Positions 870 to 13,456 of a DNA stretch of 25,955 nucleotides are shown piece by piece. The position numbers were made by a program, and so were the translations under genes. How positions within the stretch are numbered: the first letter of the stretch is position 1; each line of letters begins with the position of its first letter. The stretch is from a virus, in the IMG/VR virus record IMGVR_UViG_3300017710_000044, positions 1 through 25,955 of that record, one strand, 5' to 3'. The notes beneath the pieces are model-generated. The model was not told the DNA's origin. It ran no database searches and worked only from the letters and a program-made list of their open reading frames with translations.

Positions 870-898
870 TTGACTTCTGGTGACGATTTTGGTATAAT
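870..898 (+). promoter_or_regulatory. Sigma70-like promoter P1
   Basis: TTGACT at 870-875 and TATAAT at 893-898 are separated by 17 nt, a near-consensus sigma70 promoter. The context TTCTTGACTTCTGGTG recurs at two other unit boundaries (9750 and 13427). The predicted start of transcription falls about 7 nt after the -10 box, at or next to the ATG at 905, so the first transcript would have almost no leader. It should drive the terminase small-subunit candidate and the curli/cyclase cargo block. Confidence 0.8.
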
Positions 899-904
899 TC
901 AAAT

Positions 905-1378
905 ATGAGTAAGCAAATATCAACAAGAATCAGTCCAGAAGGCTTAGAAGTGGCAAACGCTTATCTAGAGTTGGGAAATATCCCGGCTGTATGCGCTCGA
1001 CTCGCTATTGACGAGGGAGAATGCTCAGAAATTCTAGCTAAACGAGAAATTAAACAGTATGTTGACCAAGTATACTTAGATACGGGGTATAGAAACCGTT
1101 TTAAGCTAGCAGAACTACTAGATGATATCATAGACAAAAAGTTTGAGGAAGCACACGAATCAGAAATCTACACAAATAAAGATTTAGCAGATTTGGTTCA
1201 GCTTGCCCACAAAATGAGAATAGATGAAATCAAAGCTCAGACTGATATGGAAAAAGCAAAAGCACAAAATGTAAAAAATCAAACCAATGTTCAGATAAAC
1301 GGAGAAGTTCCGTTTGGACAAGGCAACTATGGCGAATTAATGAAGAAATTATTAAAAGAGCCTTCCTCCGATGTATGA
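905..1378 (+). CDS. Probable terminase small subunit
   Basis: The product has 157 residues. Residues 10-50 form a helical, helix-turn-helix-like segment (ISPEGLEVANAYLELGNIPAVCARLAI). A long helical region with LAELLDDIIDKKFEEAHESE and LVQLAHKMRIDEIKAQTDMEKAKA follows, and the C-terminus is polar. Small terminase subunits have this plan: a DNA-binding N-terminus, a central oligomerisation coil, and a tail that contacts the large subunit. They recognise the packaging site and load the motor. The assignment is by overall pattern and genome type, not by a diagnostic motif. It lies about 11 kb from the large subunit. No Shine-Dalgarno sequence precedes the ATG, and the promoter is so close that a leaderless message is expected. 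It overlaps the next gene by ATGA. Confidence 0.5.
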   Translation: MSKQISTRISPEGLEVANAYLELGNIPAVCARLAIDEGECSEILAKREIKQYVDQVYLDTGYRNRFKLAELLDDIIDKKFEEAHESEIYTNKDLADLVQLAHKMRIDEIKAQTDMEKAKAQNVKNQTNVQINGEVPFGQGNYGELMKKLLKEPSSDV

Positions 1379-1992
1379 AAAATTTAGCATTATTACTACT
1401 AGTAACTTTACCTCTGGCAGCAGAGCATCACGAAATCTGGGTCGACAAAGAAATTTATCAAGTTTGGTACGACGAAGCTCTAGAACAACCTACTAAAGTT
1501 ACATATTGGGTTAGCAACAGACCTAAAAATGCCGACCGTAAAGGCATGAACTTTTATAAAGAACCAGATTTTCATACTTCAGACAATAACGACTACTATA
1601 AAAATGTATGGGACAAGGGCCACATAGCGCCCGCTGCACATTTTTCCGATTCAGAAGAAAATTTAAAGAAAACATTTAGTTATTTAAATTCTGCACTACA
1701 ACATGAGAAATTAAACAGAGGTGCTTGGAGATTCTTAGAAGCACAAGTACGAAAATGGAGCGAAGAAGAGCTTCTTTATGTTGAAAACGAGATATTTTTT
1801 GGTTCAGGTAGTGAAGTTCTACCTACAGGAGCCACTGTCCCAGATGGTTTCCAAAAAACAATAGAATTTACAGAAAGTGGAACACAAAAGTGTTTTTTCT
1901 TTCCAAACGAAGCGCCCACTATGAAGTGGCAAGAGTATGAAGTTGAATGCAATATTCCAGTTTACATACTACCTGAAGGAATACGAGGATGA
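1375..1992 (+). CDS. Exported DNA/RNA non-specific endonuclease (NUC1/NucA family)
   Basis: The product has 205 residues and begins with a signal peptide (MKNLALLLLVTLPLAAEHHE, cleavage near residue 16). The core motif DKGHIAPAAHF near residue 81 corresponds to the family D-R-G-H motif that carries the catalytic histidine of the beta-beta-alpha-metal fold. FSYLNSALQHEKLNRGAWRFLE, about 22 residues on, matches the segment that supplies the metal-binding Asn. The Arg of DRGH is Lys here, a conservative change. Such enzymes cut DNA and RNA without sequence preference using Mg2+. With a signal peptide it would act in the periplasm or outside the cell. It could degrade incoming competitor DNA, extracellular DNA or nucleotide sources. 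It overlaps the preceding gene by ATGA and probably depends on coupled translation, as no ribosome site is seen. Confidence 0.85.
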   Translation: MKNLALLLLVTLPLAAEHHEIWVDKEIYQVWYDEALEQPTKVTYWVSNRPKNADRKGMNFYKEPDFHTSDNNDYYKNVWDKGHIAPAAHFSDSEENLKKTFSYLNSALQHEKLNRGAWRFLEAQVRKWSEEELLYVENEIFFGSGSEVLPTGATVPDGFQKTIEFTESGTQKCFFFPNEAPTMKWQEYEVECNIPVYILPEGIRG

Positions 1993-2285
1993 CGGAGTGG
2001 TTAGGCTTAATAGCTGACTTAGGTACTCCAATTGCAGTAGGTATTGCGGCAGGTATTTTCATATTTTTAATTATGAAGCAGATATTCGGCGGACTTGTCG
2101 ATGATCTTGGTACTTTAAAAATATTTGCAAAAGGCTTAACGACTCGAGTTAAGACCATGAATAATGACATGATAAAGATTGATGCAACTATAAGCAATAT
2201 TATCCATGTTAGCCCTCCTCTAGACAGAATGGCTAGGGCAGAAAACTTTGTAGAAGACGGAACAATAGATACCAGGAGAGACTAA
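1989..2285 (+). CDS. Holin-like small membrane protein A
   Basis: The product has 98 residues. One strong membrane segment (about residues 10-35, GTPIAVGIAAGIFIFLIMKQIF) follows a short N-terminus. A hydrophilic helical region with VKTMNNDMIKIDATISNIIHV comes next. The ribosome site AGGAATACGAGG precedes the ATG, which overlaps the nuclease stop. The following gene is a clear paralog with the same plan (compare NNDMIKIDATISNIIHV with DNDMIRLQEKVNTALHI). The size and layout resemble small phage holins and XhlA/BhlA-type proteins, in which membrane insertion leads to lysis. A role anchoring or gating the curli-type pore encoded next is also possible. Confidence 0.6.
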   Translation: MTEWLGLIADLGTPIAVGIAAGIFIFLIMKQIFGGLVDDLGTLKIFAKGLTTRVKTMNNDMIKIDATISNIIHVSPPLDRMARAENFVEDGTIDTRRD

Positions 2286-2587
2286 TGGAAGATTTAGTTA
2301 CTGCTGTTCAAAACTACGGGTTTCCTGTAGTAGCAATGGTAGGTCTTGGATATTTTGTTTACTTTGTTTGGACTACTATAAATGAAGAAATAGATCCCGC
2401 AATTGAAGAATTGCATATGACACTAATTAGACTCATTGATCAAGTAAGGATGCTTGACAATGATATGATACGTTTACAAGAAAAAGTAAACACGGCTCTG
2501 CATATTAGAGATAATGAAAAGAAGAATGACATACAAGTACAAAGTCATGAGACCAAAAAGGACAACAATGATGCAAAAAGGAATTAG
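2285..2587 (+). CDS. Holin-like small membrane protein B
   Basis: The product has 100 residues. The membrane segment is at about residues 12-32 (GFPVVAMVGLGYFVYFVWTTI). An acidic linker, a predicted coiled helix (LHMTLIRLIDQVRMLDNDMIRLQEKVNTALHI) and a charged Lys/Asp/Asn-rich tail follow. It is a tandem paralog of the gene before it. The ribosome site AGGAGAGACTA precedes the ATG, and the start shares a base with the upstream stop. Its 3' end overlaps the csgF start by about 20 nt in another frame. A holin or antiholin pair is one explanation, since phage holins often occur as pairs. No direct evidence of lysis function is in the sequence. Confidence 0.6.
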   Translation: MEDLVTAVQNYGFPVVAMVGLGYFVYFVWTTINEEIDPAIEELHMTLIRLIDQVRMLDNDMIRLQEKVNTALHIRDNEKKNDIQVQSHETKKDNNDAKRN

Positions 2588-3059
2588 ATTAATTTTTTCA
2601 GTAGCCTTAATTGGAGGAGCTTTATTCTTATTTGTACCTGTCGTACAAGGCGACGAAATAGTACATAAATTTAAAAATCCTTCTTTTAGTGGTATAGGTA
2701 CTGGAGCACATTACTTAACAATTGAAAATCAAGAAAACGCAAGAAAGAAACAAATCGAAGATGCTTTAGAGGCAGCTCGTAAAGCAGCGGAAAGAGAAGC
2801 TGATAATAGTACTCTTGCAAAATTTATTAGAAACCTAGAAAGCAGAATTTATTCGCAAATGGCAAAACAATTAGTAGAATCTATGTTTTCCAATGATGAA
2901 TCTGTAAGGTTTGGCTCCTTCACTCTTGAAGGTAATGTAGTTACCTATGAAGTAATTACAAATACAGACGGCAGTGAATTTATTAGAATGACTATAATCG
3001 GTACAGACGGTACGGAAACAGTCATCGAGATACCAGTAGGAACTGGTACATTCGGATAA
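2568..3059 (+). CDS. csgF: CsgF-like curli assembly factor
   Basis: Starting from the ATG pair at 2568/2571, the product is about 163 residues. It has a signal peptide (QKGIRLIFSVALIGGALFLFVPVVQG, cleaved before DE). The mature N-terminus reads EIVHKFKNPSFSGIGTG, matching the CsgF signature FxFRNPxFGGNP that inserts into the CsgG barrel. A long charged helix, a LESRIYSQMAKQLVESMF helix, and VTYEVITNTDGSEFIRMTIIGTDGTETVIEIPVG follow; the last matches the CsgF C-terminal sheet. In bacteria CsgF caps the CsgG pore on the cell surface and nucleates curli fibres. The central helix is longer and richer in Ala/Arg/Glu than in E. coli CsgF. An in-frame ATG exists at 2514, but the AAGGA site before 2568 and the signal peptide favour the later start. 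Confidence 0.82.
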   Translation: MMQKGIRLIFSVALIGGALFLFVPVVQGDEIVHKFKNPSFSGIGTGAHYLTIENQENARKKQIEDALEAARKAAEREADNSTLAKFIRNLESRIYSQMAKQLVESMFSNDESVRFGSFTLEGNVVTYEVITNTDGSEFIRMTIIGTDGTETVIEIPVGTGTFG

Positions 3060-3062
3060 AGC

Positions 3063-4016
3063 ATGATACGAGTAGCATTAAGTTTACTACTAGTACTTTC
3101 AGGATGCGCTAGTATACCTCAGTGGAGCGACAACCCTCAAGACTGTAATGATGAAGCAGGAAAGTACACAGAAGGGTTCAATAGACACGCTCAGATGGGA
3201 GTGCAAAAAGCACTTGCTAGAAAGTACATCTGTATTAACGACCCCGAGGTAGTGTCTTTACCTTCTTACATTAAGCTACTAGAATTACCTCCCGCAAAGA
3301 AAATGCCAATAGTAGCAGTATATAGTTTTAATGATTTAACAGGCCAAAGAAAGAGTGTACAAAACATTGCAAGTTTTAGTACGGCGGTGACTCAGGGCGG
3401 AGTAGAGATGCTTATTGATGCCCTTAAAACAGCTGGGGGAACAAAATGGTTTAGAGTAGTTGAAAGACATGGAATTGACCATTTAGTTCGTGAAAGACAA
3501 ATAATAAGATCTGGAAGGGAAGATGCTGCTAAAGCTCTAGGAGAAACGGCACCTAAGGTTGGTCCTTTACTCTTTGCCGGAATTATTATTGAAGGTGGTA
3601 TTATTGGGTATGACACCAATATGCTAACTGGAGGAAGAGGAGCCAGAACTCTTGGAATTAGTTTCACAAAACAATATAGACAAGATCAAGTAACTGTCAG
3701 TCTTCGGGCAGTTTCTGTACTTACAGGAGAAGTCCTTTTAAATGTACAGACAAAGAAAACCATACTGTCGTATGGAGCATCAGGAGACATTTTTAGATTT
3801 ATTGAAGAAGGCACTCAACTTATAGAATATGAGGACGGTACTGGAAAAAATGAATCTGTAACTTATGCAGTACGAACAGCTATTGAAGCTGCAGTACTCG
3901 AAATGATCTACCAAGGCCACGACAGAGGCTATTGGCAGATAACGCCAGGACATAGACATCCGCATCAAGATAATGGTACGAATGAATTACATGCTCTGGA
4001 AGGGAGAGAAGAATGA
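3063..4016 (+). CDS. csgG: CsgG outer-membrane curli secretion pore
   Basis: The product has 317 residues. A lipoprotein signal has the lipobox LSGC, with Cys15 as the predicted lipidation site. After a roughly 50-residue insert with two further Cys (28 and 57), the CsgG domain runs from about residue 80 to 295. Diagnostic matches to E. coli CsgG by eye include FSTAV, GARTLGISFTKQYRQDQVTV, TGEVLLNVQTKKTILSY, DIFRFIE, the Ala-Ile-Glu of AIEAAVLEMI and DRGYW. CsgG forms a nonameric 36-strand barrel that exports unfolded curlin across the outer membrane. The loop that lines the pore constriction is altered (Tyr51 and Asn55 replaced, Phe56 kept, E. coli mature numbering). The C-terminus is His-rich (HRHPH). 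It lies directly between csgF and a curlin-repeat gene and overlaps the latter by ATGA, so one operon is clear. Confidence 0.93.
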   Translation: MIRVALSLLLVLSGCASIPQWSDNPQDCNDEAGKYTEGFNRHAQMGVQKALARKYICINDPEVVSLPSYIKLLELPPAKKMPIVAVYSFNDLTGQRKSVQNIASFSTAVTQGGVEMLIDALKTAGGTKWFRVVERHGIDHLVRERQIIRSGREDAAKALGETAPKVGPLLFAGIIIEGGIIGYDTNMLTGGRGARTLGISFTKQYRQDQVTVSLRAVSVLTGEVLLNVQTKKTILSYGASGDIFRFIEEGTQLIEYEDGTGKNESVTYAVRTAIEAAVLEMIYQGHDRGYWQITPGHRHPHQDNGTNELHALEGREE

Positions 4017-4747
4017 GAATACTACTTTTAGGCCTAAGTTTATTTTTTAGTTCTTTAGCATTAGCACAGGCAACAGATGACAACGAAATCTGGATCGATC
4101 AAACAGGTGATACTCTTACTTTGTACATTGACCAAATAGGTTTCGGTAACAAGATAGGACTCGATGATTTTTCAGGTTCAGCAGATTACATGGACATTAC
4201 TGGTGCTTCACTTACTTTTGATTTAGACTTTGCAGGTAACCAAAATTTACTTTTTGGTGCTTTAGTTGCAGACTCCTCGAGTTATACTATTAACTTTATA
4301 GGAGACTCGAACGAACTAGATTGGAGCATTGGCTCTACTGGTTCAGGAGACACGTCTAATTACAATATAGCGGTGACAGGCGATTCTAATACTTGGGATA
4401 TTGACCAAGGATCAGTAGCCAGTGCAGAAAGACTAGACATGGACCTTACCTTAATAGGAAATAGCAATATTTTTGACCTTGACTTTGAAGCAGACGACGC
4501 TACATGGAACTTCGATATAACTGGAGATTCCAACAATGTTAATACTTTACAAAAAGATGGTGCAGATGCGAAAATTGATTTCGTATTAGTTGGAGACAGC
4601 GCAGACATTGATATAAATCAAATATCTGGTACTTGTGCCGCTTCAGGCGGAGGGTGTGCTACACCATCAGGCATCATAGAAATGGAAGTGACAAGCGACA
4701 ATGCAACTATTCAGATCAATCAAAAAGACGCAGCTAACGATTCTTAG
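4013..4747 (+). CDS. Curlin-repeat fibre subunit candidate 1
   Basis: The product has 244 residues, with a signal peptide ending SSLALAQA before TDDNE. The rest is about eight repeats of 21-25 residues. Each has alternating hydrophobic positions, a G-D/N-S-N turn, and a second strand often ending in Gln, for example IAVTGDSNTWDIDQ, LTLIGNSNIFDLDF and FVLVGDSADIDINQ. This is the strand-turn-strand logic of CsgA/CsgB curlin repeats, which stack into a beta-solenoid amyloid. It is much richer in Asp than E. coli CsgA. A Cys pair separated by six residues (CAASGGGC) lies before the last repeat. It has a strong ribosome site (GGAAGGGAGAGAAG). Placement directly after CsgG supports it as an export substrate. 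Whether it is the main subunit or a nucleator cannot be told. Confidence 0.82.
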   Translation: MRILLLGLSLFFSSLALAQATDDNEIWIDQTGDTLTLYIDQIGFGNKIGLDDFSGSADYMDITGASLTFDLDFAGNQNLLFGALVADSSSYTINFIGDSNELDWSIGSTGSGDTSNYNIAVTGDSNTWDIDQGSVASAERLDMDLTLIGNSNIFDLDFEADDATWNFDITGDSNNVNTLQKDGADAKIDFVLVGDSADIDINQISGTCAASGGGCATPSGIIEMEVTSDNATIQINQKDAANDS

Positions 4748-5840
4748 TTTACTGGTTATCAGTGGAGTCTCACATGCAGACTCCATTGGTGACATAGTAG
4801 AAAGTACGGGGCTCTCATCTTTAACGCGACAAACAGGAGAAGAGTTTGTAGTATCTTCCACACTGGTTCCCTCTATAGAAATAATGGATAGAGCAGAAAC
4901 AAAGAATGGAAGAATGTTAATAGAATTTTTAGATAAATCAGAATTAGCACTAACAGAACACACAAGGGTAATTATAGACGAAGTTATATATGACCCTAAT
5001 CCAGACAAGTCCAAAATGGTAATGAAATTTGCTTTTGGCACTGCAAGATTTGCAAGTGGGGTAACAGGTCAAGTTAATAAGAATAATATTGACATACAAA
5101 CACCAACAGCACAGATTGCAATTCGTGGTACTGATTTCACTACTACGATAGATGAACTAGGCAGAAGCTTAGTTATATTGCTTCCTGATGAGTATGGAGA
5201 CCCATCAGGATCAATAATAGTAAGTAATCAAGCAGGAGAAGTCACATTAGATCAAGCATACGCAGCGACTATGGTATCCTCTCTTGATAGTACACCTACA
5301 CAAGCCGTTACACTAAACAATGTTACACCAGGAATTATTGATAATATGTTTATTGTAAATCCTCCTAAAGAAATAAGAGAGACAGTAGAAGAAAGTGTAC
5401 AAAACAACGAAGACTCAGGACTATTAGATATAGACTACTTAGAGTTTAATGAATTAGAACAAGACGCTCTAAAGAATACAGAAGTTGATTTAGAGTTTTC
5501 AGAGTTAGATATAGACTTTCTAGATGTAGACTTTTTAAGAGACTTACTAGATGTCATAGAAGAATTAGATAGAACAACAATAAAGCTAGCAGATAGACAA
5601 GCAAACGCTAGTAGCGACTTCACTTTACGTGGAGCAACAATAGGCAAGAACTCAGACAGCCAATATAATATATTTGTAGAAGATGATGGCGTAGTATTTT
5701 ATAGAGATGTACAAGGCATAATTCGTTTAAAAGTACAAATAGGCAGCAGTGTTAAGCTAGAGACAAGAGTAGAAGGGTACGAAGGACTCATTGATCTAGA
5801 TGGAGGAGAAGACTCATTAATAGTTATTTCTCAAGATTAA
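4701..5840 (+). CDS. FecR-domain periplasmic protein
   Basis: The product has 379 residues. The signal peptide (RSIKKTQLTILSLLVISGVSHA, cleaved before DS) supports the ATG at 4701, although that start lies 47 nt inside the curlin gene in another frame. GGAAG precedes it. Residues about 60-150 form the FecR fold, with GRMLIEFLDKSELALTEHTRVIIDE, MKFAFGTARFASG and TPTAQIAIRGTDFTT, the last a hallmark of the family. An acidic region (about 225-290, with LDIDYLEF, LDIDFLDVDFLRD) and a C-terminal beta-rich segment follow. FecR domains act in periplasmic signalling or bind cell-surface polymers. They are often encoded beside CHASE2 cyclases and CsgG- or OmpA-type genes in bacteria. Here it may link the secretion module to the cyclase downstream. 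Confidence 0.85.
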   Translation: MQLFRSIKKTQLTILSLLVISGVSHADSIGDIVESTGLSSLTRQTGEEFVVSSTLVPSIEIMDRAETKNGRMLIEFLDKSELALTEHTRVIIDEVIYDPNPDKSKMVMKFAFGTARFASGVTGQVNKNNIDIQTPTAQIAIRGTDFTTTIDELGRSLVILLPDEYGDPSGSIIVSNQAGEVTLDQAYAATMVSSLDSTPTQAVTLNNVTPGIIDNMFIVNPPKEIRETVEESVQNNEDSGLLDIDYLEFNELEQDALKNTEVDLEFSELDIDFLDVDFLRDLLDVIEELDRTTIKLADRQANASSDFTLRGATIGKNSDSQYNIFVEDDGVVFYRDVQGIIRLKVQIGSSVKLETRVEGYEGLIDLDGGEDSLIVISQD

Positions 5841-5924
5841 GGTTTATACGTAGAAAGTATGGATTTCCTTTACAAAGATTAGGAAGAATAATAGATATTT
5901 ATATATGAAAACAGGAGTAAGTAG

Positions 5925-6074
5925 ATGTGGAGACTGTGGGCAAAAAGTTTAGGAGAAAAAAATGGAACAACTGACAGAGAGGCTGACAAAATTGCTATTA
6001 TTCGTAGTTGTATCGTGCTACTTAATGCTATTACATGCTGCGTTATTATAGCAGGCAATATACATAATTGGTAA
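5925..6074 (+). CDS. Small membrane protein, 49 aa
   Basis: An ATG at 5925 with GGAG eight bases upstream opens a 49-residue product. It starts MWRLWAKSLGEKNGTTDREAD and continues with KIAIIRSCIVLLNAITCCVIIAGNIHNW. The first half is charged with a LWAKSLGEK motif. The second half is one membrane helix with two adjacent Cys, ending in His-Asn-Trp. I recall similar tiny membrane proteins (RLWAKALGEK followed by a hydrophobic helix ending in HW) in phages of marine bacteria, but no function. The stop falls 4 nt before the next ATG. A competing frame (ATG near 5962, 29 residues) is less convincing. Confidence 0.6.
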   Translation: MWRLWAKSLGEKNGTTDREADKIAIIRSCIVLLNAITCCVIIAGNIHNW

Positions 6075-6078
6075 TAAT

Positions 6079-6297
6079 ATGAAACTAAGAGAAAAGATAA
6101 ATAATAGAATAGATCAAATAGAAATGCTTATGTATGAAAACTACCATTTAAAGAACCCAAATGAAGTGTATAATCAAACACTACAAGTTACTAAGTTTTG
6201 GTCAGTTCTTTCAGAAGAAGACAGAGACTTTCTTCAAGCAGCACAGTCTTCTATTGAAGAAGGATGGAGATGGGAAAAAGATGATAGAGGTAACTAA
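6079..6297 (+). CDS. Hypothetical protein, 72 aa
   Basis: Not recognised. The product is 72 residues, mostly charged and helical, with EDRDFLQAAQSSIEEGWRWEKDDRGN at the end. No signal peptide or membrane segment is present. It starts 5 nt after the small membrane protein gene and overlaps the IscA-like gene by 17 nt, so it belongs to the same operon. The ribosome site is weak. Confidence 0.55.
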   Translation: MKLREKINNRIDQIEMLMYENYHLKNPNEVYNQTLQVTKFWSVLSEEDRDFLQAAQSSIEEGWRWEKDDRGN

Positions 6298-6598
6298 TGA
6301 AGCGTATTCTAAGCTTATACAGAAGGCATTACTACAGGAGAATTTTGTTTTTAGACTTGGTATTACTGGGGGCGGCTGCGGTGGTATGGAGTACATTTTT
6401 GCTTATAATGATAAGAGTTTTCCAAGCGATACTGTGATAGATTGGGGCGAAATAAGATTCCGTATCGATCATAATTCAGTTTCCTACTTGAAAGGCTTTA
6501 CACTAGATTACAAAGTGGAAGGATTAAATGAATCCTTCGTATTTATTAACCCAAATGAAACTTATCGCTGTGGATGCGGTGAAAGCGTGGTATTTTAA
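6281..6598 (+). CDS. A-type iron-sulfur carrier (IscA/ErpA/HesB family)
   Basis: From the ATG at 6281 the product is 105 residues, close to bacterial IscA (107). It has the three conserved cysteines of the family: Cys33 in ITGGGCGGMEY and Cys97/Cys99 in YRCGCGESV. The N-terminus (MIEVTNEAYSKLIQKAL) matches the usual helix. A-type carriers accept and hand over Fe-S clusters to apoproteins. A longer in-frame reading from 6161 exists, but its extra 40 residues overlap the previous gene and lack family similarity; GGAGATGGG precedes 6281. In a phage it may maintain an Fe-S enzyme during infection or help supply Fe-S clusters to a phage protein. It sits within the cargo block, without obvious Fe-S partners in the window. 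Confidence 0.85.
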   Translation: MIEVTNEAYSKLIQKALLQENFVFRLGITGGGCGGMEYIFAYNDKSFPSDTVIDWGEIRFRIDHNSVSYLKGFTLDYKVEGLNESFVFINPNETYRCGCGESVVF

Positions 6599-6783
6599 TG
6601 GAAAATTATTATTTTAAAGACGAACTACTAAGAGTGGTAAATTTATCTCCACCTAAGTTAGATATAAACAAATTGGAAGAAGTACACCCAATGAAACAAA
6701 TAGTCTGGGCAGCAATCATACAGGTTGCAGTTTTCGGTTTTATGTTGTTATCATTTTGGGGAATTAACGGAGTAGTACAATGA
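6598..6783 (+). CDS. Small single-span membrane protein, 61 aa
   Basis: The product has 61 residues. A polar N-terminal half (MENYYFKDELLRVVNLSPPKLDINKLEEVH) is followed by one membrane helix at about residues 33-57 (KQIVWAAIIQVAVFGFMLLSFWGI). It starts on the last base of the IscA-like stop (TAATG) and overlaps the next gene by ATGA, so translation is probably coupled across the three. An internal Met at residue 32 could give a version that is almost only the helix. Function unknown; the holin-like size is noted but not sufficient for a call. Confidence 0.6.
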   Translation: MENYYFKDELLRVVNLSPPKLDINKLEEVHPMKQIVWAAIIQVAVFGFMLLSFWGINGVVQ

Positions 6784-7676
6784 CAAAGCAATGGCACGGA
6801 GGAAAAGGCAGTGTGCAAAGACCTACAAACAAAGATAAGTACAATGATAACTATGATAGAATTTTTAACAAATCTAAAGAAGATAAAATAGAAAAAGCTA
6901 TGGAAGAAGTAAATAAAAAATATCCTGAAACTCTTAAAAGTTTAGGAGAGATAACTGCGCTTGGAACGGTATTCTTTTTATCTATTTTTGCACTAAGTCC
7001 TTCTACTCAAGCAGATGATAACTTAATTCATATTGAGCAGTCAGGAAATAACTTTCAATTAGGGGTTGACCAAGTAGGGTATAATAACACCATTGATATG
7101 TTAGACTCTCAGTCTTATATTACAGCAGGTAGTCTAGATATGTACTTGGTTCAAGTTAACACTACTTCTGGAGCACTTCCTAATTCAATTATATTTGATG
7201 AAGTAAGTGGCACAGGTAATCAAATGAAACTTGCCCAAGGTGCTGCATGGACTACACTTGATTCAGACACTGATTTAACTTGGTGGGTAGATAACTACGA
7301 GAGTGGAGGCCACGATATAGGAATTACTATGTATGGCGACTATAATGAACTAGCGGTTCAACAAACAAATCAAACAGGTGCATCAGATGGTCATACTTTT
7401 GATCTACATTTAGCAGGCGATAATAATAAAACTCAGATAAAACAACAAAGTAATGGAGCAAAGACTATAGACCTTACAATTTACAATGACTATAATGATG
7501 TATTTATCAGACAAAAAGGTGTTTGGGCAGCTCACACGGCAACTATAACACTTGATGGTACTAATCCAACAGATTTAACTTTAAAACAATTTGGAGATAC
7601 AACTCAAACGTACAGTCTAGCACAAAACTGCTATACTACAGGAGGTTGCACGGTAAGTGTGACTCAAGGACAATAA
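6780..7676 (+). CDS. Curlin-repeat fibre subunit candidate 2, with N-terminal phage domain
   Basis: The product has 298 residues. Residues 1-30 (QWHGGKGSVQRPTNKDKYNDNYDRIF) resemble a small conserved protein I associate with marine phages, here fused to a secreted protein. A charged linker leads to a hydrophobic signal-like segment at about 56-75 (LGTVFFLSIFALSPSTQA), then ADDN. The rest is curlin-like repeats, for example IHIEQSGNNFQLGVDQVGYNN, FDLHLAGDNNKTQIKQQ and IDLTIYNDYNDVFIRQK. The block after the cleavage site matches the first curlin gene (DDN-I-I-Q-G, then DQ-G and N-I), and both have a Cys pair near the C-terminus (CYTTGGC here). Repeats are less regular and richer in Asn/Gln/Thr. 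It may be the second subunit, analogous to CsgB beside CsgA. The ribosome site GGAG lies 7 nt before the ATG. Confidence 0.75.
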   Translation: MTKQWHGGKGSVQRPTNKDKYNDNYDRIFNKSKEDKIEKAMEEVNKKYPETLKSLGEITALGTVFFLSIFALSPSTQADDNLIHIEQSGNNFQLGVDQVGYNNTIDMLDSQSYITAGSLDMYLVQVNTTSGALPNSIIFDEVSGTGNQMKLAQGAAWTTLDSDTDLTWWVDNYESGGHDIGITMYGDYNELAVQQTNQTGASDGHTFDLHLAGDNNKTQIKQQSNGAKTIDLTIYNDYNDVFIRQKGVWAAHTATITLDGTNPTDLTLKQFGDTTQTYSLAQNCYTTGGCTVSVTQGQ

Positions 7677-7677
7677 T

Positions 7678-7968
7678 ATGCCTAAGAAAAGAGACCCAAG
7701 ACTAAAAAGAGCAGGAGTACGAGGATTTAACAAACCAAAGAGAACTCCAGGACATAGAACAAAATCACACATAGTTGTTGCCAAAGTAGGTGGTAGAATC
7801 AAAACAATACGTTTTGGCCAGCAGGGAGCTAAGACGGCAGGGAAGCCCAAGGCCGGTGAGTCTGCTCGTATGAAGAAAAAAAGAGCTTCCTTCAAAGCAA
7901 GACACCGCAGGAATATAGCAAAGGGTAAGATGTCCGCAGCTTACTGGGCAAATAAAGTAAAGTGGTAA
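7678..7968 (+). CDS. Basic conserved phage protein, 96 aa
   Basis: The product has 96 residues, strongly basic. It carries PRLKRAGVRGFNKPKRTPGHRTKSHIVVAKV, IKTIRFGQQGAKTAG and a C-terminus ASFKARHRRNIAKGKMSAAYWANKVKW. I recognise this as a family common in marine phages, without known function. The charge and the RH-N-KGKMSAAYWANKVKW ending suggest nucleic-acid binding or a virion-packaged protein. AGGA precedes the start. Its stop overlaps the GTG start of the cyclase by 7 nt, coupling the two. Confidence 0.75.
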   Translation: MPKKRDPRLKRAGVRGFNKPKRTPGHRTKSHIVVAKVGGRIKTIRFGQQGAKTAGKPKAGESARMKKKRASFKARHRRNIAKGKMSAAYWANKVKW

Positions 7969-9746
7969 AAAAGCTTATTGCTTTTACTTTGGTACTGGGA
8001 TTCTTTATATGGAATCCCTATCCTTTAAAAATACTAGAACTTCAATCATTCGATTGGCTTATGAAAACACAGCCTGAAGTTCAAAATCAAAACATAGTAC
8101 TCGTCGATATTGATGAAGAAATCGTCGAGGCATACGGAGGTTATCCACTTCCTAGAACACTTTTTGCAGCCATGATAGAGAGAACTTCCGGGGTACCGGG
8201 GTTCACAATACTCATGCCTGATCCAGACTTGCGAGACAAAGCAAACGATATAGTATTATCTAATGCTCTCAGTGCAAGACCAACAGTGTTAGCTTTTGCA
8301 GCTTCAACACAAGCAACTGAGTTAGGGCCTCATGTAGGCACTGCTCAAATAGGAGGTGATCCAACAAAATGGACGATAAATTATCAGGGAATCCTGAGGC
8401 AGACTACGATATTGTCTCACGCCGCAGAGGGCAAAGGTATCGTAAGCTCAAGGAGCGAGCTAGACGGCGTCGTAAGGCGAATTCCTCTAGTCGTAAGTAG
8501 TAATAACGAAGTATACCCAAGTTTTGCACTAGAAATGTTAAGACTTGGCACAGGAGATATTAGTTACCAGATAAGAACAGGAGAGTACGGGGTTGAGTGG
8601 GTCAGAGTACCTGCGTATAATAAAATGAATACTGATGCAAATGGAAGTATATGGTTAAACACCAATGTAAAGTTCCACAGGCAAACAGCTTCAGAGTTTA
8701 TGAGCAATCCTATGCAAGCACCGTTTGTTATTTTTGGAGTTACTGCAGAGGGAGTGGTTAATCCAGTTCCTACGGCTTCAGGGGCTAAATATCCACATGA
8801 ACTTCAAGCAAATATACTACATAACTTAATTGAAGGAAAAGCACCTTCAGTTCCAAATTGGAGTGCAGGAGTAGAGCTAGGAGCTGCAGTTCTAGCTTTG
8901 CTTCTCCTCCTTCTTACTGTAAGTAGAGTCTATTTAAGCCTACCCACTTTACTACTAGTTATTGGAGGTTCTTTATATGGAGCCTGGTATGCCTTCCAGT
9001 CTTCCTATCTATTTGACGTTTCTGGAATCATAATCATCTCGGTTTTGTTTTGGAGTATCGAAAGTTTCAGGAATTTTATAAAGACCTATTTCGAGAAAAT
9101 GGAAATTAAACGACAATTCGGGACATACGTAAGTCCTGCCTTAGTAAAAAAATTACAAAAAGACCCAACACTACTGAGATTGGGTGGGTCTACAAAACGT
9201 ATGACTTTTCTTTTTTCTGACATTCGAGGATTCACACCAATTTCAGAAAAATATCAATCAGACCCTCAAGGACTAACTAAACTTATAAACAGATTTCTTA
9301 ACAATCAAACAGAAATCATATTAAAACATGGCGGAACAATAGATAAATACATGGGCGATTGTATCATGGCATTTTGGGGTGCACCACTCGATGACGAAGA
9401 TCAAGTTGAAAACGCTACAAAAGCTGTACTTGAAATGAGAATAGCACTTGGAGAATTAAATGAAAAACTTGAGGAAGAGGGACTGGATCAAATCAATACA
9501 GGAGCAGGAATTAACACAGGTTTATGCGTCGTGGGGAACTTTGGGTCATCGACTCGTTTTGACTATTCTGTGCTTGGCGATAGCGTTAATCTGGCTGCAC
9601 GGTTAGAATCCAGCTGTAAAACTTATAATACTGATTTAATTATATCAGAACACAGTCTACTAGATACTTATGAATATGAGTTTTTAGACGAAGTAACGGT
9701 TAAAGGCAAATCCGAACCCGTAAAAATATACACCATACAAAAATAG
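7962..9746 (+). CDS. CHASE2-domain membrane adenylate cyclase (class III)
   Basis: The product has 594 residues, starting at GTG. There is one N-terminal membrane helix (about 4-21) and an extracytoplasmic CHASE2 sensor domain (about 25-295, with QNIVLVDIDEEIVEAYG and PLPRTLFAAMI). Three membrane helices follow (about 302-370), then a short linker and a class III cyclase domain (about 410-594). Catalytic residues are present: metal-binding Asp420 (FSDIRGF) and Asp466 (MGDCIMAF), purine-selecting Lys462 (DKYMGD), and Asn543 and Arg547 (VNLAAR). Ser536 replaces the second purine-selecting Asp, as Thr or Ser does in class IIIb enzymes. It should make cAMP from ATP in response to a periplasmic signal. 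The last cargo gene before promoter P2, it overlaps the upstream stop; no clear ribosome site. Confidence 0.93.
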   Translation: MVKKLIAFTLVLGFFIWNPYPLKILELQSFDWLMKTQPEVQNQNIVLVDIDEEIVEAYGGYPLPRTLFAAMIERTSGVPGFTILMPDPDLRDKANDIVLSNALSARPTVLAFAASTQATELGPHVGTAQIGGDPTKWTINYQGILRQTTILSHAAEGKGIVSSRSELDGVVRRIPLVVSSNNEVYPSFALEMLRLGTGDISYQIRTGEYGVEWVRVPAYNKMNTDANGSIWLNTNVKFHRQTASEFMSNPMQAPFVIFGVTAEGVVNPVPTASGAKYPHELQANILHNLIEGKAPSVPNWSAGVELGAAVLALLLLLLTVSRVYLSLPTLLLVIGGSLYGAWYAFQSSYLFDVSGIIIISVLFWSIESFRNFIKTYFEKMEIKRQFGTYVSPALVKKLQKDPTLLRLGGSTKRMTFLFSDIRGFTPISEKYQSDPQGLTKLINRFLNNQTEIILKHGGTIDKYMGDCIMAFWGAPLDDEDQVENATKAVLEMRIALGELNEKLEEEGLDQINTGAGINTGLCVVGNFGSSTRFDYSVLGDSVNLAARLESSCKTYNTDLIISEHSLLDTYEYEFLDEVTVKGKSEPVKIYTIQK

Positions 9747-9749
9747 TTC

Positions 9750-9778
9750 TTGACTTTAGGTTCATGTTTTGCTATAAT
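9750..9778 (+). promoter_or_regulatory. Sigma70-like promoter P2
   Basis: TTGACT at 9750-9755 and TATAAT at 9773-9778 are separated by 17 nt. The context GTTCTTGACTTTAGGT matches P1 and P3. It begins 3 nt after the cyclase stop codon, in the only real gap of the region, and would give a leader of about 40 nt before the ATG at 9828. It should drive the small-protein run and the large terminase. Confidence 0.8.
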
Positions 9779-9827: not shown

Positions 9828-10025
9828 ATGAACGCAGAAGAGATAGCAGCTGACTTAGCTCAGCACGAGGCTGTATGTGCAGAACGCTGGAAGACTGCGT
9901 TTAATCGTTTTGACGAGATGGACAGCAACATAAAAAGAATAGAAACTATAATTATTTCCGCTGCAGGAACTATAATATGTGGTGCAGCAGGTATTATTAT
10001 TACAATGGTATTTATGCACAATTAG
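9828..10025 (+). CDS. XhlA-like small membrane protein (possible holin)
   Basis: From the ATG at 9828 (AGGAAAAATAACA before it) the product is 65 residues. A polar helix, NAEEIAADLAQHEAVCAERWKTAFNRFDEMDSNIKRIE, is followed by one C-terminal membrane helix (TIIISAAGTIICGAAGIIITMVF) and a short tail. This order, an amphipathic coil and then a C-terminal helix, is that of XhlA-type cell-surface haemolysin/holin accessory proteins. An in-frame upstream start at 9750 would place coding sequence on the promoter and is rejected. First gene after P2. Confidence 0.65.
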   Translation: MNAEEIAADLAQHEAVCAERWKTAFNRFDEMDSNIKRIETIIISAAGTIICGAAGIIITMVFMHN

Positions 10026-11866: not shown

Positions 11867-12103
11867 ATGGCATTACCACAAATAGATCTAAAGCAAGTAT
11901 GGCTAGACGAAGCTTATATGGCTAGTAACTCAGTAATTGATACACTTCAAGAGAAAGAGGAAGCTGGCAGAATGATTACTAAAAGTGACGCACAGTTTGC
12001 AAAGATTTGTGGGGCATATTTGTACATTTATAAACTAGCCAAAGAGAGTAAATTACTCGAACCAGACGACTTAGAAAACATTTTAACTGAGACAATTCAT
12101 TGA
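11867..12103 (+). CDS. Hypothetical protein upstream of large terminase, 78 aa
   Basis: The product has 78 residues and is helical: LKQVWLDEAYMASNSVIDTLQEKEEAGRMITKSDAQFAKICGAYLYIYKLAKESKLLEPDDLENILTETIH. It has a good ribosome site (AGGAAAATAA), and its stop overlaps the TTG start of the terminase (TTGA). Position and helical character would also fit a terminase accessory or an alternative small subunit, though no DNA-binding motif is seen. It is a rival candidate for that role to the gene at 905. Confidence 0.6.
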   Translation: MALPQIDLKQVWLDEAYMASNSVIDTLQEKEEAGRMITKSDAQFAKICGAYLYIYKLAKESKLLEPDDLENILTETIH

Positions 12104-13404
12104 GTATAGAAATTTCCAGAGCTGATGTAGAATCAGAATATTTGATGGAGTTTGACCCTAATAGTAGGTTTATTAAACTTCCTATAGAAGGGTACATGGA
12201 ACTATTAGGCATAGAACCTAATACGAGCCAACGAGCTATCATCAATGCAATCAACAATCCAAAGTATAGATTTGTAACTGCCGCAGTTTCTCGTAGACAG
12301 GGCAAAACTTACATCTCTAATATTATTGGACAACTAACATGTTTAGTACCTAATTCGCATGTACTGCTAATGTCTCCTAATTATTCTTTATCTCAAATTT
12401 CATTTGATTTACAGAGAGGTCTGATAAAGCATTTTGATTTAGAGGTAATAAGAGACAATGCAAAAGATAAAGTTATTGAGCTATCAAATAATAGCACTAT
12501 TCGTATGGGTTCTATCAACCAAGTTGACTCAGTGGTTGGTAGATCGTACGATCTTATCATATTCGACGAGGCGGCACTCACCGATGGCAGAGATGCTTTC
12601 AACGTCGCACTACGACCTACACTAGATAAAGACAACTCCAAAGCAATATTTATTTCTACTCCAAGGGGTAGGAATAATTACTTTGCAGAGTTTTATTATA
12701 GAGGCTATAATAATGAGTTTCCAGAATGGTGTGCTATTAAAGCAACCTATCACGAGAATCCTCGTGTTTCCGAAGACGACATCAAAGAAGCAAAAAAGAC
12801 CATGTCCGAAGCAGAGTTTTCGCAAGAGTACATGGCAGACTTCAATGTGTATGAAGGACAAATTTGGTCATTCAACTATGAAAAGTGCACTATGGCATTA
12901 GACCAGTTCGACACATCTAGAATGGATGTATTTGCAGGTCTTGACGTAGGCTATAAAGATCCAACAGCTTTCTGTGTAATTGCATATGATTGGGATGAAC
13001 AAAAGTATTATGTTTTAGACGAATACTTAGACGCAGAAAGAACAACTGAACAACACGCTGTGCAAATACGAAAGTTAGTAGACAAATGGGATATCGATTA
13101 TATTTATATTGATTCCGCTGCTCAACAAACAAGATATGACTTTGCTCAAAATTATGATATAACTACTATAAACGCTAAGAAGTCTGTATTAGATGGAATT
13201 GGTCATGTAGCAGGGATAGTAGATAATGACACTTTACTTGTAGATCAAAAATGTCAACAGGTAATCTCAGCGTTAGACCAATATCAATGGGACTCAAATC
13301 CTAATTTAATGAAAGAAAGACCTAAACATGATGGAGCGTCGCATATGGCCGATGCGATAAGATATGCACTATATACATTTGAAACCACAGCCACCTCATT
13401 TTAA
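12100..13404 (+). CDS. terL: Terminase large subunit (packaging ATPase/nuclease)
   Basis: The product has 434 residues from a TTG start coupled to the upstream stop. The N-terminal ATPase has Walker A SRRQGKT (64-70), Walker B LIIFDEAA (about 152-159) and the coupling motif ISTPRG (about 185-190). The C-terminal nuclease has an RNase H-like fold with Asp282 in GLDVGYKDPTA, Asp338 in YIDSA, and the HDGASHMADAIRYAL motif near 410-424, supplying the metal ligands. The protein pumps DNA into the prohead and cuts the concatemer. It is shorter than many large subunits but all motifs are present. Weak GAGA lies before the TTG. It is the last gene before promoter P3. Confidence 0.95.
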   Translation: MSIEISRADVESEYLMEFDPNSRFIKLPIEGYMELLGIEPNTSQRAIINAINNPKYRFVTAAVSRRQGKTYISNIIGQLTCLVPNSHVLLMSPNYSLSQISFDLQRGLIKHFDLEVIRDNAKDKVIELSNNSTIRMGSINQVDSVVGRSYDLIIFDEAALTDGRDAFNVALRPTLDKDNSKAIFISTPRGRNNYFAEFYYRGYNNEFPEWCAIKATYHENPRVSEDDIKEAKKTMSEAEFSQEYMADFNVYEGQIWSFNYEKCTMALDQFDTSRMDVFAGLDVGYKDPTAFCVIAYDWDEQKYYVLDEYLDAERTTEQHAVQIRKLVDKWDIDYIYIDSAAQQTRYDFAQNYDITTINAKKSVLDGIGHVAGIVDNDTLLVDQKCQQVISALDQYQWDSNPNLMKERPKHDGASHMADAIRYALYTFETTATSF

Positions 13405-13426: not shown

Positions 13427-13456
13427 TTGACTTTTGGTGTGCGGATGGGGTATAAT
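13427..13456 (+). promoter_or_regulatory. Sigma70-like promoter P3
   Basis: TTGACT at 13427-13432 and TATAAT at 13451-13456 are separated by 18 nt. The context CTTCTTGACTTTTGGTG matches P1 and P2, and TATAATTCA matches P1. The leader to the ATG at 13475 would be only about 10-12 nt. It heads the HNH-portal-capsid-tail unit. Confidence 0.8.

Follow-up and report, generated by a model that had tools for sequence, protein, structure and literature searches.

The window analyzed here is a 25,955-nt viral contig (IMG/VR record IMGVR_UViG_3300017710_000044, positions 1-25,955) that carries a module of curli-type (type VIII) secretion genes. The module spans positions 1989-9746 and consists of eight genes encoding, in this order, two small membrane and coiled-coil proteins (sm1 and sm2), CsgF, CsgG, a curlin-like repeat protein (Cur1), a FecR-domain protein, a second curlin-like repeat protein (Cur2) and a CHASE2 sensor with a class III adenylate cyclase (AC) domain (Table 1). 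It is located between the genes for the small and large terminase subunits (TerS and TerL) and heads the block of packaging, head and tail genes, which runs on the plus strand from TerS, the first gene, through the module, TerL, portal, a protease-capsid fusion, head-tail and tail genes to the tape measure gene. The evidence is computational throughout, and the contigs compared are fragments; collections of related contigs list the nearest first, the relatives are the nearest matches listed, counts are to be read as 'at least', and E-values from scans apply to candidates only.

An earlier note on this DNA had described a phage-borne curli-type export, substrate and signaling set at 2568-9746. 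These gene identities were confirmed: the open reading frames (ORFs) and their co-directionality are as claimed, and the CsgF, CsgG, FecR-domain and CHASE2 cyclase assignments all pass the Pfam cut-offs. The note overlooked sm1 and sm2 upstream of csgF as well as the T5-like identity of the phage. The overlaps that it listed between CsgG and the first curlin gene and between the latter and the FecR gene are present, but the one between an IscA-like gene and the second curlin gene is not, the overlap partner of the latter being a 61-aa membrane ORF.

Table 1. Features of the window around the curli-type module.
Feature	Position	Strand	Evidence and remarks
Sigma70-type promoter TTGACT-N17-TATAAT	870-898	+	before TerS
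TerS	905-1378	+	phrog_3802 E=4.5e-38; upstream flank of module
sm1, small membrane + coiled-coil protein 1	1989-2285	+	phrog_18771 E=1.5e-18
sm2, small membrane + coiled-coil protein 2	2285-2587	+	phrog_18771 E=1.9e-28
CsgF	2514-3059, likely start 2568	+	Pfam PF10614 E=3.2e-13; F-x-x-P-x-F
CsgG, outer-membrane lipoprotein pore	3063-4016	+	Pfam PF03783 E=5.3e-54; lipobox LSGC
Cur1, predicted exported substrate	4013-4747	+	Curlin_rpt E=0.0076
Secreted FecR-domain protein	4701-5840	+	Pfam PF04773 E=1.1e-7, residues 65-152; phrog_37870 E=3.6e-62
IscA-like A-type Fe-S carrier	6161-6598, likely start 6281	+	Pfam PF01521 E=1.9e-10
61-aa membrane ORF	6598-6783		abuts IscA, overlaps Cur2
Cur2, predicted second substrate	6780-7676	+	Curlin_rpt E=0.036
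CHASE2 sensor + class III AC	7962-9746	+	Pfam PF05226 E=6.7e-30, PF00211 E=3.6e-22
Second promoter, same sigma70 type	9750-9778	+	directly after cyclase, before TerL segment
TerL, T5-like	12100-13404	+	48-49% identity to T5-like phages; downstream flank
Third promoter, same sigma70 type	13427-13456	+	before portal/capsid genes

Judging from its genes, the window belongs to a T5-like siphovirus, unlike the podovirus and myovirus types known to carry the module. T5-type TerL, portal, capsid and tail proteins are all present, the similarity to T5-like siphoviruses (Demerecviridae relatives) extending over 98% of the TerL length, to the portal (~40% identity) and to a p140-type baseplate tube protein. 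In contrast to the window, none of the named T5-like phage records searched contains CsgG, and the open-access literature searched did not mention any T5-like carrier (subscription papers and preprints lay outside the search). A scan with TerL, which does not select for the module, yielded at least 599 matching stretches in IMG/VR. Among the 80 nearest T5-like contigs (79-100% TerL identity), the cyclase was present in all 25 that extend 3.4 kb or more upstream of TerL and CsgG in all 8 that extend beyond 8.6 kb, and no empty TerS-TerL site was found among the T5-like contigs examined. The T5-like lineage is a third tailed-phage lineage with the module, beyond the podoviruses and myoviruses, and does not feature in the papers that described those.

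The module and TerL are bracketed by three near-identical promoters. Three exact TTGAC-N17-19-TATAAT sites were observed in the window versus 0.07 expected, and promoters of the same type recur at corresponding places in other T5-like loci. The promoter upstream of TerS probably drives both TerS and the module. In a 102,910-base T5-like relative, G072, the structural genes and the module occupy the plus strand, whereas replication and most other genes are on the minus strand. Given this layout, the shared promoter type and the position between TerS and TerL, the module is likely to be co-transcribed with the virion genes, and its expression may accordingly be late.

The CsgG profile matched the solved structure of E. 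coli CsgG over its full length (E=4e-94), the lipobox Cys15 is invariant, and so is the F-x-x-P-x-F motif at the mature N-terminus of CsgF. A single-sequence search returned no solved structure for CsgF. Both the CsgG pore lipoprotein and the CsgF partner expected of a type VIII secretion system are present. The absence of CsgE reported in the earlier note was borne out in 31 viral records and the 3 nearest cellular genomes, with a positive E. coli control. According to literature cited in PMC7029224, CsgE is accessory rather than essential, and the pore, CsgF and exported repeat proteins are held to suffice for curli without it. Compared to the E. coli curli system (CsgA-G), with which it has in common the CsgG fold and lipobox, CsgF and predicted repeat substrates, the window lacks CsgE, C and D, its substrate repeats are diverged, and FecR, the CHASE2 cyclase and sm1/sm2 are added. 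All eight module genes are under purifying selection (median dN/dS, the ratio of nonsynonymous to synonymous substitution rates, 0.03-0.15); because, in addition, the same gene order recurs across dozens of independent contigs, the module is far beyond a chance arrangement.

Cur1 and Cur2 appear to be relatives of curlin-repeat proteins, weak singly and clear as families: 17/28 Cur1 relatives (best 8.6e-6) and 12/27 Cur2 relatives (best 8.5e-16) match Curlin_rpt, and invariant G..N and Q columns are regularly repeated in both families. It is at this family level that the earlier identification of two curlin-repeat proteins stands, rather than for the individual proteins. The AlphaFold2 models are all-beta (mean predicted local distance difference test score 84.1 for Cur1 and 83.7 for Cur2), in kind with the beta-solenoids expected in the note; the nearest solved folds of the Cur2 model are the SufB/SufD beta-helices (best E 0.04, probability 0.99, TM-score 0.53), and the beta-helix matches of the Cur1 model are weaker, which falls short of proof. 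In loci L137, L142 and L148, Cur2 sits between sm2 and csgF. The window Cur2 has an N-terminal extension ahead of its signal/transmembrane segment. Some T5-like Cur2 proteins (window 6780-7010; L012, L031 and L088) have at their start, fused before this segment, a small cytosolic protein of phages (KQWHGGKGS/SKGSxRRP...NWDKIF), which is encoded by a free-standing gene in L144, L161, L029 and L033; an internal start codon is possible.

The FecR-domain protein consists of a signal peptide followed by PF04773 as the only domain found, with no anti-sigma domain detected in Pfam. An iron regulator of the anti-sigma type was rejected on these grounds, and a periplasmic partnership with CHASE2 is the more plausible role for the protein. 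In the cyclase, the residues expected of a class III enzyme are in place: the metal-binding Asp420 and Asp466, the substrate-binding Lys462 and the transition-state Arg547 are invariant in 57/57 relatives, and Asn543 is present in 53/57.

Each of the two small upstream proteins (~97 aa) combines one transmembrane segment with a coiled coil. In nearly all loci, the sm1 gene directly precedes sm2 and csgF, and in a scan started from sm2, CsgF was the next gene in 74 of the 75 sm2 loci with enough downstream sequence. Among named phages, sm1 and sm2 occur only in curli carriers, except for one weak partial sm2 match. The published label of histidine kinases was rejected, as no kinase domain was found in Pfam in proteins of this size and no histidine is conserved (no column exceeds 44% His among 78 sm2 or 5% among 77 sm1 sequences). 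By linkage, sm1 and sm2 are dedicated module members, a point not made in the papers that read them as histidine kinases.

The module, including two substrates and a cyclase, is already known from pelagiphages. CsgG and CsgF, which the earlier note took to be possibly known from marine phages, were indeed described in pelagimyophages, for which 'sibling capture' was proposed (Zaragoza-Solas 2020, PMC7029224), and in the OM43 phage Melnitz, with a proposed role in lysis (Buchholz 2022, PMC9004378). Furthermore, the combination of two substrate candidates with a sensor cyclase, which the note took to be unusual, was published for podoviruses and myoviruses in 2022 as one or two 'histidine kinases', CsgF, CsgG, CsgA/B, FecR, a second CsgA/B and adenylate cyclase, without CsgE (Wittmers 2022, PMC9599517), and we found this order in the records of HTVC008M and Melnitz. 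The genes and order in HTVC023P-type podoviruses and HTVC008M-type myoviruses are those of the window, likewise without CsgE. By contrast, the window comes from a T5-like phage with the module between TerS and TerL, its small pair are not histidine kinases, the IscA-like gene and the 61-aa membrane ORF are inserted before Cur2, and Cur2 is extended. As a marker for podoviruses, the portal family PF12236 matched nowhere, which leaves the assignment of L070 to the podoviruses tentative.

The nearest cellular CsgGs, 54-56% identical to that of the window, are from Caulobacteraceae metagenome-assembled genomes (MAGs) and Hyphomonas sp. TMED17 (L168-L170). There, CsgF, CsgG, one or two curlins, FecR and CHASE2 cyclase are encoded on one strand among ordinary bacterial-type genes, without CsgE, as in the window; in contrast to the window, sm1 and sm2 are missing, and the curlin gene or genes precede FecR, with none between FecR and the cyclase. 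Thus, FecR and the cyclase are part of a cellular operon in Caulobacterales relatives, contrary to the abstract of PMC9599517, which itself remarks on a resemblance to alphaproteobacterial operons, and only sm1 and sm2 would be a phage addition. The cellular type is rare, FecR of the module type being strongly found in 1/200 genomes sampled from the order. The position of the Caulobacterales CsgGs in the tree is weakly supported, so that transfer between phages and cells may have gone in either direction.

Within phages, T5-like CsgGs are scattered among T4-like ones (a label assigned by gp23 in long records, many short contigs being unassigned). A common origin of the T5-like modules was rejected, since forcing their CsgGs into one clade costs 182 log-likelihood units (approximately unbiased test, p=1.5e-7). 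Moreover, compared with the window, T5-like L012 has an 82% identical cyclase and a 31% identical Cur2, whereas in T4-like L019 the values are 40% and 67%, respectively. These comparisons indicate that individual genes of the module are exchanged by recombination. Exchange is strongest for Cur2, whose identity falls to 32% even for some pairs of modules with CsgGs that are at least 95% identical.

The module was also observed in the very long viral contigs L265 (216,820 bases) and L266 (339,794 bases, with gp23 pieces), which may be jumbo phages or assembly artefacts. Its phage form, with sm1 and sm2, is present in L165, L166 and L167, assigned to Flavobacteriales, Sphingobacteriales and Planctomycetaceae MAGs, respectively, but probably misbinned phage contigs. 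Finally, L004 (OR851715.1, 1,499 bases), labeled Salmonella phage S.Kent, encodes a CsgG 43% identical to that of the window; this unverified scrap is probably host or environmental DNA.

Other genes in and around the module vary. The IscA-like gene, found in few loci and at varying places, is a variable passenger rather than a core module gene. In G072 (L328 6818-7544), the IscA-like gene beside the module is accompanied by an adjacent NifU/IscU-type scaffold gene (1.2e-37), so that Fe-S assembly genes come with the module at this site in some carriers. A secreted DNA/RNA non-specific endonuclease with a signal peptide (Endonuclease_NS, Pfam, 8.5e-23; window 1375-1992) overlaps TerS and sm1 and, among the loci searched, was found only in the window and the near-identical contig L005. 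Downstream of the cyclase, a small protein with a C-terminal single membrane segment (9828-10025), conserved in T5-like loci, has a holin/XhlA-like architecture and matches no family with a function. A cytochrome c domain gene (2.4e-7; L327 13600-14037) lies near the lysozyme and spanin genes of G072. An Rfam search of the window gave no match, and the one tRNA considered as a host clue, a tRNA-Ala in a relative, matched neither of two genomes compared in an informative way.

On balance, the module probably constitutes a working, CsgE-less type VIII secretion system that is made with the virion genes and exports two curlin-like proteins. This is supported by the joint maintenance, under purifying selection, of CsgG, CsgF and two repeat proteins with signal peptides, and by the cellular CsgF-CsgG-curlin-FecR-AC operon, likewise devoid of CsgE. 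Under this scenario, the module would be transcribed together with TerS from the phage's own strong promoter; the CsgG lipoprotein would form an outer-membrane pore with CsgF seated in it; and Cur1 and Cur2 would cross the inner membrane by Sec and exit through CsgG to form a beta-repeat, curli-like surface fiber, with Cur1 as its conserved and Cur2 as its exposed, exchangeable subunit. A sensor pair made up of the periplasmic FecR-domain protein and the CHASE2 cyclase may report on export or assembly and make cyclic AMP (cAMP), and the inner-membrane coiled-coil pair sm1/sm2 may help to keep the machine in place, to gate it or to time it, perhaps in the role that CsgE has in E. coli. Adhesive fiber would thereby coat infected cells, or else the debris and progeny released by lysis, and the benefit would most likely lie in aggregation or encounter with new hosts. 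Several observations weigh against this interpretation. The window Cur1 and Cur2 match Curlin_rpt too weakly to pass the Pfam cut-off, and their models have no counterpart among solved structures at E<=0.001, which makes amyloid formation a prediction only. Furthermore, no clumping was seen in culture of the related phage Melnitz (PMC9004378), and that anything in the host reads the cAMP is an assumption.

Alternatively, the exported fiber or pore could shield the surface, blocking adsorption of competing phages (superinfection exclusion, proposed in PMC9599517) rather than causing aggregation. We consider this unlikely: export to the outer membrane fits, and exchange of Cur2 between otherwise near-identical modules is what would be expected of an exposed, antagonistic part, but the operon position and the promoters shared with the packaging genes suggest late synthesis, at which point exclusion would be of little help. 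Somewhat less probable still is uptake, whereby CsgG-CsgF would admit larger solutes, cofactors or iron chelates to the periplasm of a nutrient-limited host, with the curlin-like proteins as plugs or regulators and FecR/CHASE2 sensing the solute (PMC7029224, PMC9599517). The missing CsgE gate and the FecR domain are compatible with such a pore; however, the cellular relatives also lack CsgE, the FecR protein does not have the anti-sigma layout of iron regulators, and a pore would not need the two substrates and CsgF that nearly all loci retain.

A gated pinhole that depolarizes the membrane and times progeny release, as proposed for Melnitz (PMC9004378), appears very improbable; the earlier note had raised a gated pore for lysis as a possible role. 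A small single-membrane-segment protein does follow the cyclase. Nevertheless, CsgG is an outer-membrane lipoprotein pore, whereas pinholins act in the inner membrane; the two substrates and the cyclase would be left unexplained; and G072, a module-bearing T5-like relative, encodes a lysozyme (Pfam, 3.7e-52) and an Rz-like spanin (phrog_739, 1.3e-9) of its own elsewhere, making a lysis role unlikely in this lineage.

Returning to the export machine, these results show that curli modules in phages are no peculiarity of pelagiphages but a core, repeatedly exchanged set in at least three tailed-phage lineages. This breadth, together with fixation among the structural genes of the marine T5-like lineage recovered in the TerL scan, argues for a general benefit. 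In sm1 and sm2, a component that had been mislabeled in earlier work comes into view, and FecR and the cyclase move from a supposed phage addition to part of a cellular operon. In a bolder and, in our opinion, rather unlikely extension, sm1 and sm2 would be a phage-specific inner-membrane pair standing in for CsgE and linking the curli pore with the FecR-CHASE2-cyclase sensor in a late fiber machine shared by unrelated ocean phages. If so, repeated exchange would provide such phages with an 'infected-cell fiber' machine by which dying cells become adhesive particles that help to transmit the progeny. If fibers are made at all, phages would produce amyloid-like surface structures in plankton otherwise without them, opening a viral route to cell aggregation.

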